Assembly (NCBI GenBank): GCA_020719775.1
Contig: DYPS01000022.1
Span: 1-33,993 of the forward strand
From: Desulfosporosinus sp.
Lineage (GTDB): Bacteria; Campylobacterota; Campylobacteria; Campylobacterales; Arcobacteraceae
Length of the DNA stretch: 33,993 nt
Direction: 5' to 3'
Shown: positions 19,638 through 23,898 of the stretch, in pieces
Layout of the letters: each line of letters starts with the position of its first letter
How positions within the stretch are numbered: position 1 is the stretch's first letter
Notes under the pieces: model-generated
What the model saw: only the letters and a program-made list of their open reading frames with translations
What the model was told of the DNA's origin: nothing
Databases searched by the model: none
Program-made: the position numbers and the translations under genes

Positions 19638-20879
19638 TTAAATATTCTTCCAGAGTTCTTTGGGCGTTTTTTGTTTTTGATCTGTTTGTTTTTTTTTCTC
19701 TTGATGTAACTTATCGTAAACTTTTAAATTAGTTACTTCTTTAGTATTTTTGATTGGTTTGTTTTTTGTTTTATCTAGTTGATTATTAGACTTAATCTCT
19801 TGTTTAGATATAGATTTAACTTTCTGTATCGTTTTAGATTCTAAATCAGAAGTTTTTTTTAATTCCTTTTCTTTAGCTACGGTAGTAGCAATATTAATTT
19901 TATGTGATTCGAAATTAGATGCAAATGAATGTCCACCACCTCCAACTTTTTTCATAAAAAACAGGTAACTATTTTTTGCCGGAAATATGGCAGCTTTGAT
20001 TGCTTCAAATTCAACAGCACAAACCGGATCTGTTGGTATACCGTAAAACTTATAGGTATTATATGTAGTTTCATCATTTGCTATCATAGTTGGAGTAACT
20101 CGTGTATGAGAAAATTCACCATAATTTAAGGTGCCATCCATTTGAAGTTTCATTTTCTGAGCAAGTCTATTATAGATTACCCCAGAAACTTGAGTCATCT
20201 CCATTTTTGAACCTGATTCTTTTTGAATGATAGAAGCTATAATTATATATTTGTACCAATCGTCTCTGTGATAATTATTAAAAATCTTGGTACTATATTT
20301 TTGATATTCTTCTTGAGTATATTGAAAAAGATACAAAAGTAAATCTCTTGGATTCATCCCTATTGGAAGATTGTAAGTTTGAGAGATGATATTTCCATCT
20401 TTTTTGTATGCTAATTCATGATAAGCTTTAAATAATTCGTCTCTTGGAAGTTTAAGTTTAGTTGCTAATTCATTTAGAAAAAAATAATATGTTTCACCAG
20501 GGAGAAGTGTAACAGTGGCTAGAGCCGCTTTCGATGTTGAAATTTTATATAAAAAATCTAGCTTCGTAAGTTTCGTAGTATCAGATTTTAAGCCCATATC
20601 CATCCAACCGCTTTGAGGATAACCAATAAATAATAATGAAATTCTATCAATAAAATTAAGGCTATATCCATTTTGATTTAGATAAGATAACGCATTAGAA
20701 GTTGATCCTTTTGGTATGAAAACAACTCTTTTTGATTCCATTGATAAGGTTAAATAATATAAAATAGTGATGAAAAATACAAGACCAAGCTCAATAGCAC
20801 TTAAAAGCGTAACTTTTTTACTAGTATTTTTTATTTTTTCAATTGTAGTTTTTATATATTCTTTAATGTATGGCTTCAA
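19638..20879 (-). CDS. mltG: Endolytic murein transglycosylase MltG (YceG-like)
   Basis: A 413-residue inner-membrane protein with one N-terminal helix (about residues 24-46) and a periplasmic YceG domain. The catalytic region reads IIASIIQKESGSKME (catalytic Glu), then VSGVIYNRLAQKMKLQMDG and YGIPTDPVCAVEFEAIKAA. It cleaves nascent glycan strands and limits their length. From about residue 330 a Lys/Gln/Thr-rich, low-complexity tail of about 85 residues extends past the domain, which is unusual. The only in-frame start that keeps the membrane helix is TTG 20879, with a poor ribosome binding site. Its first 110 bp overlap the divergent AsmA-like gene. Confidence 0.88.
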   Translation of the reverse strand: MKPYIKEYIKTTIEKIKNTSKKVTLLSAIELGLVFFITILYYLTLSMESKRVVFIPKGSTSNALSYLNQNGYSLNFIDRISLLFIGYPQSGWMDMGLKSDTTKLTKLDFLYKISTSKAALATVTLLPGETYYFFLNELATKLKLPRDELFKAYHELAYKKDGNIISQTYNLPIGMNPRDLLLYLFQYTQEEYQKYSTKIFNNYHRDDWYKYIIIASIIQKESGSKMEMTQVSGVIYNRLAQKMKLQMDGTLNYGEFSHTRVTPTMIANDETTYNTYKFYGIPTDPVCAVEFEAIKAAIFPAKNSYLFFMKKVGGGGHSFASNFESHKINIATTVAKEKELKKTSDLESKTIQKVKSISKQEIKSNNQLDKTKNKPIKNTKEVTNLKVYDKLHQEKKKQTDQKQKTPKELWKNI

Positions 20880-23800
20880 ATTTAATCATCTTTCTTTCGG
20901 TGGAATAAATATAGGGGCATTGTATTTAAAATATGATAAAAAACTCTTTTTACAGCTTAATGATTTTGATTATAATGGTGATAAATTTGATCTTAATGCG
21001 GTAATTAGTAGTACTAATGGAAAGATTATAATTGATATTGAAAACTTATACTATCAAAATGTTCAAATAAATCTTAAAGGGAAATTACCTCTTTCTTTTG
21101 ATGAAATCAAAAAACTCAAAGATGGTTTTAAAAAAGATTTAACTTTTTCAAATGCTACAGTTACCTTCAATAAAGCACTTTCTCCCGTTTTAGCTGAAAA
21201 ACTTTTTGTACAATTTTCAGATGATATCCATTTTAGATTTTTACACCCAACATTAGATGGAATAAAGCTTGATAATTCAACTATTGATATTGTTGATTTG
21301 AAAAATGATGGAATTTTAAAAATATATTTAAATATGCATAATATTTTGGATAGAAAAATTTTAAAAATTCTTGGAACTTATGAAGTTGATTTACCATTAA
21401 AACAAATAGAGGGGGAAACACATACTAATATTAATATCGATATTCCTTTTGCAGAAGATTTAGGAACAGTTGTCACAGCTTTTGTAAAAGTAAAAAATGG
21501 AGTGATAGCATTTGGAGATAATCATCTTAATATAAAGCAAACACCTTCAAGTCCAAAAACGAAAGTAAATGTTTTTGTTGAATTGAAAAATAATAAAGTC
21601 CTTTTTGATGAATATATTGTTTATTCTGATTTGATTAAGGCTCGATATGAAGATAAAATATTAAAAGTTGTTTCAAAACAAAATATCCTTAAGAACCAAG
21701 AATCTATTGCTTTAGCTACTTTAGAAAATTTAAATTTTAGAATCAAAGACAAAATGCTTAAATATGGTGTTGATCTTAAAGATCAAAAGATGAATTCTAT
21801 TACTTTAATAGGTGATGCAAATTTTTATAAACAAACTACCCAAGGGAAAATGAATTTACAGCGCTTGAATTATGAAGATAAAGCTCAATTAGAAAATCAA
21901 ACTTTATCTTATTCTGTTTCAAACAACCCTTTGAATATTTTGATAAATGGTGATTTGGAACTTAACGCAAAACTTGAAAATAATGAAACAAAAATAGTAA
22001 ATTTTAAAAATTTTAACCTTAATTATAAAGATAAAATAGCAATAATAAATACAGGTATAGATGACGGAAAGAACCTATTCTTTCTAGAAAATATTACAAA
22101 TTTTGATAAAAATGAAACAATTGGAAAATTTTATATCAATAATTTTATTTTTGACAATAGAATTAAAATAAGTAATCAAGTTTTAAACTACAATCTTGGA
22201 CATGAGCCATTAGTGCTGACAATGAATGGCAATATGGGGATGCTTTTCAAAAGCAAAGAAGATGGAGAAGATAAAGCGATATTATTTTCAAATTTAATTG
22301 CAAGATATGAAAACAATACGGCAACAATTGATGGAGATTTGATTGAAAATCAAAATAAAATTACATTTCATGATACAACATATTTGGATGAAAATATTTC
22401 AAAGGGAAAACTTTTTATTTCAAATATGGAGTATAAAGATATTGCAAAAATTAAAAATCAAACTGTTGATTTTGAGTTAACTCATCAGCCAATTGAAGCA
22501 CATTTTTTTGGTGATTTCAAAGTTGTTTTAAATGAAAAAGATTATACAAAAGAGCTGTCTCTAAATGGATTTGATGCTCTTTATAGTGATGATATGATCA
22601 AAATTAAAACAAATGTTGATGAAGGGGATAACTCTTTATATTTTACAAATATTACTAATTTGGATACAAAAGTTGCAAAAGGAAGTCTGAATATTAAAGA
22701 TTTTTCTTTTAAACCATATTTGAATCTTAAAAATGAATTTTTGCAATATAATGTTGATTTTAAAGATAAAATTAAAGCAACTATTCCTAAATATTCTCTT
22801 ACTTATGAAAAAAATCAAGAAAATCGAGAAGTTTTAAATATCGGAAGATTAAATAATTTATTAGATAAATTTGAATATATCAAAAATAAAAAATTACAAG
22901 ATGGAACATTGCATCTTTCAACTGCTGATAATTTTAAAGAAACCAATATTATAGTAAATGATTTAGCAGTAGATATAAACAGCAATTTATTTAGTCAAAA
23001 TCAAAGTGAAACAAATGTAGCTGATAAAAATCATACAATACAAGATTTACCGAAGATATCCTTAAAAATGTTTAATTCAAAAATCTCTATTGATAATAGC
23101 TACGATATAAATGCAGTTTCGCTATTAGCGAATACAAATAAACAAATAATTGATGTAAAATATTTGCCTCAAGATGAAAAGAATATAATTAAATTTCATA
23201 AAGATGGAGATATTTTCAGTTTGAAAGCAAATAATGTAAGTGATAAATTTATTGAAAATATTACAAAGAAAAATATTTTTGATGGAGGACAATTTACTAT
23301 TGATTTAAATGGGAATAAAACAAATCTTTATGGTGAAATTTATACAGAAAATACGACAGTTAAAAATGTAAAAATTTTAAATAATTTGATTACATTTATT
23401 AATACAACACCAGCTATTGTCTCACCAGTTTTGGCCTTGCCTACACTTTTTAGAATGAGTGAATCGGGATTTGATATAACAGGGTATCCTATAAAAGAGG
23501 GAGATGTAAAATTTAACTATCTTTATGATTCAAAATTATTAACCTTAGAATCATTTTATACCAAAAGCGACATGATGGACTTTAGAGGAAAAGGGAAGGT
23601 TGATATAGCAAATCAAAAACTTGAAGCTGGGCTTGATGCAATATTTTTGAAAGATTATTCAAAGCTACTTAAGCATATTCCACTTGTGGGGTATGTTATT
23701 ATGGGAGAAGATGGAAATTTTGCTGTTAATGTTAATATCAATGGAACATTTGAAGAACAAGAATTTACAACAGATATAATTCGAAATGCAACAGAAGGCA

Positions 23801-23898
23801 CAGTAAATATAATAAAACGAACTTTTATAACTCCTTTTAGGTTATTTGAATTAGTAGAAGAGATAGATAAAAACAATACTACAGAAGAAGGAAAATAA
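20770..23898 (+). CDS. AsmA-like / DUF3971 large envelope protein with internal repeats
   Basis: A 1042-residue protein with one N-terminal membrane helix (about residues 14-36) and a long, beta-rich, Asn/Lys-rich periplasmic region. A unit of about 93 residues recurs at about residues 360, 452, 545 and 639, each with GK-xxIxN, Y-NQ-x-L-x-Y, a GD or GN strand and F-x-NIT. The C-terminal part (FDITGYPIKEGDVKFNY ... ANQKLEAGLDAIFLKD) is the AsmA-family C-terminal domain. Relatives (YhdP, TamB, YdbH) form a repeating beta groove carrying phospholipid to the outer membrane. The start is GTG 20767 or ATG 20770; only a weak AAGG precedes them. The stop overlaps the dnaB start (TAATG). Confidence 0.75.
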   Translation: MKNTRPSSIALKSVTFLLVFFIFSIVVFIYSLMYGFKFNHLSFGGINIGALYLKYDKKLFLQLNDFDYNGDKFDLNAVISSTNGKIIIDIENLYYQNVQINLKGKLPLSFDEIKKLKDGFKKDLTFSNATVTFNKALSPVLAEKLFVQFSDDIHFRFLHPTLDGIKLDNSTIDIVDLKNDGILKIYLNMHNILDRKILKILGTYEVDLPLKQIEGETHTNINIDIPFAEDLGTVVTAFVKVKNGVIAFGDNHLNIKQTPSSPKTKVNVFVELKNNKVLFDEYIVYSDLIKARYEDKILKVVSKQNILKNQESIALATLENLNFRIKDKMLKYGVDLKDQKMNSITLIGDANFYKQTTQGKMNLQRLNYEDKAQLENQTLSYSVSNNPLNILINGDLELNAKLENNETKIVNFKNFNLNYKDKIAIINTGIDDGKNLFFLENITNFDKNETIGKFYINNFIFDNRIKISNQVLNYNLGHEPLVLTMNGNMGMLFKSKEDGEDKAILFSNLIARYENNTATIDGDLIENQNKITFHDTTYLDENISKGKLFISNMEYKDIAKIKNQTVDFELTHQPIEAHFFGDFKVVLNEKDYTKELSLNGFDALYSDDMIKIKTNVDEGDNSLYFTNITNLDTKVAKGSLNIKDFSFKPYLNLKNEFLQYNVDFKDKIKATIPKYSLTYEKNQENREVLNIGRLNNLLDKFEYIKNKKLQDGTLHLSTADNFKETNIIVNDLAVDINSNLFSQNQSETNVADKNHTIQDLPKISLKMFNSKISIDNSYDINAVSLLANTNKQIIDVKYLPQDEKNIIKFHKDGDIFSLKANNVSDKFIENITKKNIFDGGQFTIDLNGNKTNLYGEIYTENTTVKNVKILNNLITFINTTPAIVSPVLALPTLFRMSESGFDITGYPIKEGDVKFNYLYDSKLLTLESFYTKSDMMDFRGKGKVDIANQKLEAGLDAIFLKDYSKLLKHIPLVGYVIMGEDGNFAVNVNINGTFEEQEFTTDIIRNATEGTVNIIKRTFITPFRLFELVEEIDKNNTTEEGK

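Follow-up and report, generated by a model that had tools for sequence, protein, structure and literature searches.

The stretch of DNA analyzed here (33,993 nucleotides, referred to as the window) comes from a contig of an Arcobacteraceae genome and carries two head-to-head genes, mltG and a YhdP/AsmA-like gene, whose predicted coding regions run into one another at their 5' ends. Divergent overlaps are under-represented in prokaryotes according to published surveys (PMC2174442, PMC2478687). The locus raises the question of whether this overlap is genuine and, if so, how two sets of start signals and two membrane anchors are accommodated within it.

Two divergent membrane protein genes share their 5' ends

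The product of the minus strand gene is a predicted YceG-family protein. MltG passed the Pfam YceG domain model PF02618 (158.9 bits, cut-off 32.4) and fell slightly short of the NCBIfam MltG model (98.6, cut-off 103.4). A single N-terminal transmembrane anchor is predicted by hydropathy, with the best window (2.15) at residues 23-41. Past the YceG domain, MltG has a long Lys-rich low-complexity C-terminal extension (19638-19880) whose length varies within the window's genus, and repeated matches to it were seen in genome G007.

The plus strand product returned no Pfam match at E 0.1, nor any from NCBIfam. Eight of eight orthologues adjoining mltG were above the PF13116 (YhdP) cut-off (E 1.9e-19 to 2.7e-65), and the window protein aligned with them over its full length at 18-25% identity. 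The protein, previously labeled AsmA-like and presumed to act in lipid transfer, groups with YhdP through these matches and is best read as YhdP-like. Its AlphaFold model shows a helix at residues 5-34 followed mostly by strands, at a low mean pLDDT of 53. Fold matches of this model in the PDB (LptD, ApoB) were discarded, as the TM-scores were near 0.1 and the model was of low confidence. We take the Campylobacter jejuni orthologues of the pair to be Cj0529c and Cj0530, and a search for published work on these turned up Cj0530 only twice, each time named briefly as a periplasmic protein. In E. coli, YhdP and two other proteins act redundantly in phospholipid transport (PMC8593681).

Table 1 Features of the mltG/yhdP-like locus in the window
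Feature	Position	Strand	Remarks
mltG (endolytic murein transglycosylase, YceG family)	19638..20879	-	TTG start at 20879; PF02618 E 2.4e-46
YhdP/AsmA-like gene	20770..23898	+	start ATG 20770 or GTG 20767; 1042-1043 codons
Head-to-head antisense coding overlap	20767..20879		phase 123:213, third codon positions opposed
MltG transmembrane core	20757..20813	-	best 19-residue hydropathy window, VTLLSAIELGLVFFITILY
YhdP-like transmembrane core	20809..20865	+	best 19-residue hydropathy window, VTFLLVFFIFSIVVFIYSL; AlphaFold helix 5-34, low overall confidence
MltG Lys-rich cytoplasmic tail	20814..20879	-	from sequence; opposite the YhdP-like helix
AAGG, candidate Shine-Dalgarno sequence (weak) of the shifted yhdP start	20745..20748	+	18-21 nt before GTG/ATG; long spacing
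Probable mltG -10 box, TACAAT	20919..20924	-	putative; inside yhdP codons Leu-Tyr
TAATAT at the family's probable yhdP -10 site	20755..20760	+	putative; too near the start codon for certainty

A sequence-only reading of the window had proposed a divergent 5' overlap of about 110 bp in which neither gene has another in-frame start that keeps its helix. Both points were borne out. The overlap measures 113 bp from GTG 20767 and 110 bp from ATG 20770. On the mltG strand, TTG 20879 is the sole canonical start before the helix, and the next is an ATG past it; in the YhdP-like frame an in-frame stop (TAA) lies at 20755, and the two starts just named are the only ones. Any later ATG, GTG, or TTG in the window costs either protein its helix. 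This last observation bears on the simplest alternative, that a start codon has been miscalled and one or both genes begin further downstream without overlapping. Such a miscall would be in keeping with a 2008 survey that classed all 75 divergent overlaps longer than 60 bp as 5' misannotations (PMC2478687), and with the weak codon TTG at which mltG starts in the window, but it would deprive the proteins of their anchors.

The two helices are encoded end to end

The same DNA had also been thought to code for the transmembrane helix of both proteins. Instead, the two helix cores abut, with 5 bp in common in the window, and the end-to-end layout was found at 153 loci of the set described below, with a median core separation of -2 nt. 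Placement of both helices on the same DNA was ruled out by this layout. The puzzle of two opposed hydrophobic helices vanishes, since the helices adjoin on opposite strands. Each helix lies opposite the Lys/Asn-rich basic tail of the partner protein, and 80-86% of loci have tails with a net positive charge. Across the strands codon position 1 pairs with 2, 2 with 1, and 3 with 3, which sets TTN (Phe/Leu) opposite AAN (Lys/Asn). The argument made earlier, that T-rich hydrophobic codons on one strand give Lys/Asn on the other, matches this facing of helix and tail.

The reading phase was identical at 153/153 loci. Opposite the YhdP-like helix, the antisense frame contained a stop in 15% of loci in the observed phase, compared to 93% and 99% for the two remaining phases, and the observed-phase frame there was 27% Lys+Arg. 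A simple cause accounts for the phase: in no other antisense phase is the strand across from a T-rich helix nearly devoid of stops and rich in Lys. As the wobble-facing phase spells Lys/Asn, a hydrophobic anchor encoded by one strand provides the opposite strand with a serviceable positive-inside tail. Opposite the MltG helix the observed phase is less open, with a stop in 76% of loci over 23 codons, which fits a yhdP start lying part-way along the MltG helix.

The overlap is conserved across the Campylobacterales

Genomes were located from 104 Arcobacteraceae and 20 members of other families, followed by 40 more, and their DNA was fetched; a sequence search of genome contigs returned three loci. 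The resulting conservation sample of 162 loci represents 19 families and, in practice, one order, the Campylobacterales. One locus, L032 (CAMCYD010000008.1), is titled Helicobacter pylori PMSS1, and its contig is from the window's Arcobacteraceae genus; the title looks wrong.

At 155 of the 162 loci, mltG and a YhdP-like gene were arranged head to head. No YhdP-like neighbor of mltG was found at L048-L051, and in G046 yhdP sits on a separate contig from mltG. We looked for relatives with a normal spacer between the genes and found instead a positive coding overlap in 150 of the 152 loci in which both starts were callable, every one 2 mod 3 in length. Overlaps ranged from 50 to 116 bp across the order; 80 bp was typical of Arcobacteraceae, while other families mostly had 59 or 71 bp. 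With the most permissive choice of starts the overlap was still positive in 143/151 loci, and at eight loci a GTG or TTG bordering the helix would, if used as the start, abolish it. That the phase stays constant from family to family argues for a single ancestral overlap that was never interrupted, though this phase is also the only easy one.

Start signals of each gene are written in the codons of the other

We then compared codon choice within the overlap to that of the same genes outside it, using the 74 Arcobacteraceae loci in which the stretch between two protein anchors has no indel, and redrawing synonymous codons 300 times. The mltG start was present in 59/74 loci (redraw mean 10.3, maximum 21), the yhdP start in 67/74 (mean 8.3, maximum 18), and the yhdP Shine-Dalgarno sequence in 68/74 (mean 4.6, maximum 12). 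Start signals were present inside the partner's coding region far above synonymous-codon expectation.

Individual codons account for these signals. The YhdP-like Gly opposite the mltG start is GGC in 46/74 loci against 3 expected, yielding the mltG ATG, and this is the second strongest wobble anomaly of the YhdP-like gene. The MltG Asn opposite the yhdP start is AAC-type in 67/74 loci against 8 expected and yields the yhdP ATG, while MltG (Ile/Phe)-Leu written ATC/TTC-CTT gives AAGGA 11 nt upstream of that ATG. The three strongest wobble anomalies of MltG fall exactly on the yhdP start and Shine-Dalgarno sequence.

These species share ancestry, and locus counts overstate the evidence; a genus-level tally agrees. 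With one representative per genus (n=17), the yhdP start was present in 16/17, its Shine-Dalgarno sequence in 15/17, and the mltG start in 14/17, where wobble identity between genera is 0.62 elsewhere. A simple Shine-Dalgarno search in the other families was weak (yhdP 29/54, mltG 21/54), and the case for embedded signals is for this reason strongest in Arcobacteraceae.

An upstream yhdP start in most members of the window's genus

The ancestral yhdP ATG is lost in five of eight members of the window's genus, including the window itself, where it reads GCA. The AGG is usually gone from those five as well (AGA in the window), and an in-frame yhdP start some ten codons upstream extends their overlap from 80 to 110-116 bp. 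One of the eight members retains both yhdP starts, and two retain the old site. An AAGG or AGGG at a position that could serve the shifted start is seen in this genus only, 14-21 nt from the new yhdP start. Since the ancestral signals are lost and the replacement Shine-Dalgarno sequence is weak and distant, the exact yhdP start is less certain in the window than in its relatives.

By comparison, mltG starts with TTG or GTG at the same codon in all eight members, with the facing wobble always C, and most other genera have an mltG ATG one codon further. The alternation of TTG and GTG at one codon, preserving the wobble C that creates the start, further opposes a miscall, as does the alignment of the starts across genera at six- to eight-fold above synonymous expectation and with a matching Shine-Dalgarno sequence. 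We consider a miscall highly improbable overall; as the main explanation it is ruled out by the excess of start and Shine-Dalgarno signals over synonymous redraws. The conservation and codon evidence together make it very likely that mltG and yhdP are a genuine, ancient head-to-head overlapping pair whose start signals are written in the partner's unusual synonymous codons.

Putative promoters probably face each other, each in the partner gene

Promoters were assigned solely from conserved hexamers in AT-rich DNA. The form TA[CG/other]AAT was found at the putative mltG -10 site in 73-74 of 74 Arcobacteraceae loci, as TACAAT or TAGAAT in this family and usually TATAAT in others, about 36 nt before the mltG start. 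In the window the putative box implies an mltG 5' UTR of about 33 nt. On the yhdP strand, a TAAAAT produced by MltG Leu-Phe-Tyr was present at 32/74 loci, at a similar distance before the ancestral yhdP start. The earlier suggestion that each promoter lies in the partner's coding region agrees with the presence of these putative hexamers there, but a sigma-70 promoter scan gave it no support, with 4 sites against 3.8 expected from shuffles. It is probable that each promoter lies in the partner gene and points towards the other, in which case some 150 bp would separate them. The two mRNAs would then be complementary over about 140 nt at their 5' ends, a segment that includes both ribosome sites, and mltG and yhdP may mildly interfere with each other.

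Two further features were observed near the putative mltG -10 box. The YhdP-like Ser at codon 3 before the LYIKLDKK motif (window 20925-20936) is TCG in 72/96 Arcobacteraceae loci and reads TA[CG]AATTGCGA on the mltG strand. Among the wobble anomalies of the YhdP-like gene this TCG ranks first (63 in the 74-locus set, with 3.6 expected); neither the window, which has GGG, nor the other families carry it. It is possibly a regulator site or promoter discriminator. Secondly, the codons of LYIKLDKK contain the presumed mltG -10 box, and the nearly invariant Tyr of this motif is replaced by Ser in L186 (G046), in which yhdP is unlinked. The linked locus L042 also lacks this Tyr. The single unlinked case is a hint that part of the conservation of the YhdP protein may be promoter conservation.

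The arrangement may persist mainly by lock-in, as each start region doubles as the helix or tail of the partner. We give somewhat less than an even chance to a reading in which the overlap is real and has no regulatory role. It would be genome compaction made permanent by lock-in, and the promoters would be too weak, or active together too seldom, to interfere. In favor of this reading, the genome is compact, the few lineages noted above have lost or unlinked the pair, and the phase bias is explicable without regulation. Against this stand the retention of the pair in about 16 of 19 families, though a short duplication would free the genes, and the TCG codon lying on the -10 region of mltG, which suggests additional selection there.

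The converse reading, a selected regulatory device in which facing promoters and complementary 5' ends give mutually exclusive or ratio-controlled expression, appears rather unlikely. In its favor are the geometry that would follow from the conserved putative -10 boxes and the start sites, and precedents with overlapping 5' ends in scbA-scbR (PMC3134472) and the excludons (PMC4179725), but no need for opposing the two functions is known. A specific form of it, conserved throughout the Campylobacterales, would set the ratio of peptidoglycan strand release by MltG to phospholipid supply to the outer membrane by YhdP through facing promoters, complementary 5' mRNA ends, and ribosome sites inside the partner's anchor; we regard this proposal as distinctly unlikely.

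Discussion

A limited literature search yielded neither an earlier description of an mltG/yhdP overlap nor a paper linking mltG with AsmA in Campylobacter. MltG (YceG) and YhdP of E. coli belong to the same protein families as the two products, and in E. coli their genes are unlinked and non-overlapping.

Like the divergent pairs in published surveys, mltG and yhdP are two protein genes overlapping at their 5' ends, and their phase, 123:213, is the commonest among annotated divergent overlaps, at 50-59% (PMC2174442). The surveyed overlaps longer than 60 bp were judged misannotations, whereas that of mltG and yhdP, at 50-116 bp, is order-wide and has evidence for its start signals at the level of codons. 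The pair would count as a real divergent overlap of more than 60 bp, against zero in 75 in the 2008 survey.

In Streptomyces coelicolor, the divergent scbA and scbR genes have a 53 bp 5' transcript overlap and facing promoters, with polymerase collision and antisense pairing having been modeled (PMC3134472). A 5' transcript overlap of mltG and yhdP would resemble this, as judged from the DNA. The scbA-scbR overlap is counted from transcription start sites, whereas that of mltG and yhdP contains both coding regions and ribosome sites, and unlike in scbA-scbR neither partner is a regulator. In the excludon of Listeria and others, the mRNA of one gene is antisense to its divergent neighbor (PMC4179725). 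Read from the genes alone, mltG and yhdP would share this property; the excludon leader is long and spans one or more genes, whereas mltG and yhdP would overlap only over their first 100-150 nt.

Long coding overlaps between divergent genes have been taken for annotation errors, and the mltG/yhdP pair is a counter-example readable in the codon usage of both genes. It provides a test case for how start signals are fitted inside the protein code of another gene, and a simple rule: in the wobble-facing phase, the frame across from a T-rich membrane helix is open and rich in lysine, which suits a positive-inside tail. Promoter interference, if true, would link cell-wall release to the supply of lipid to the outer membrane.
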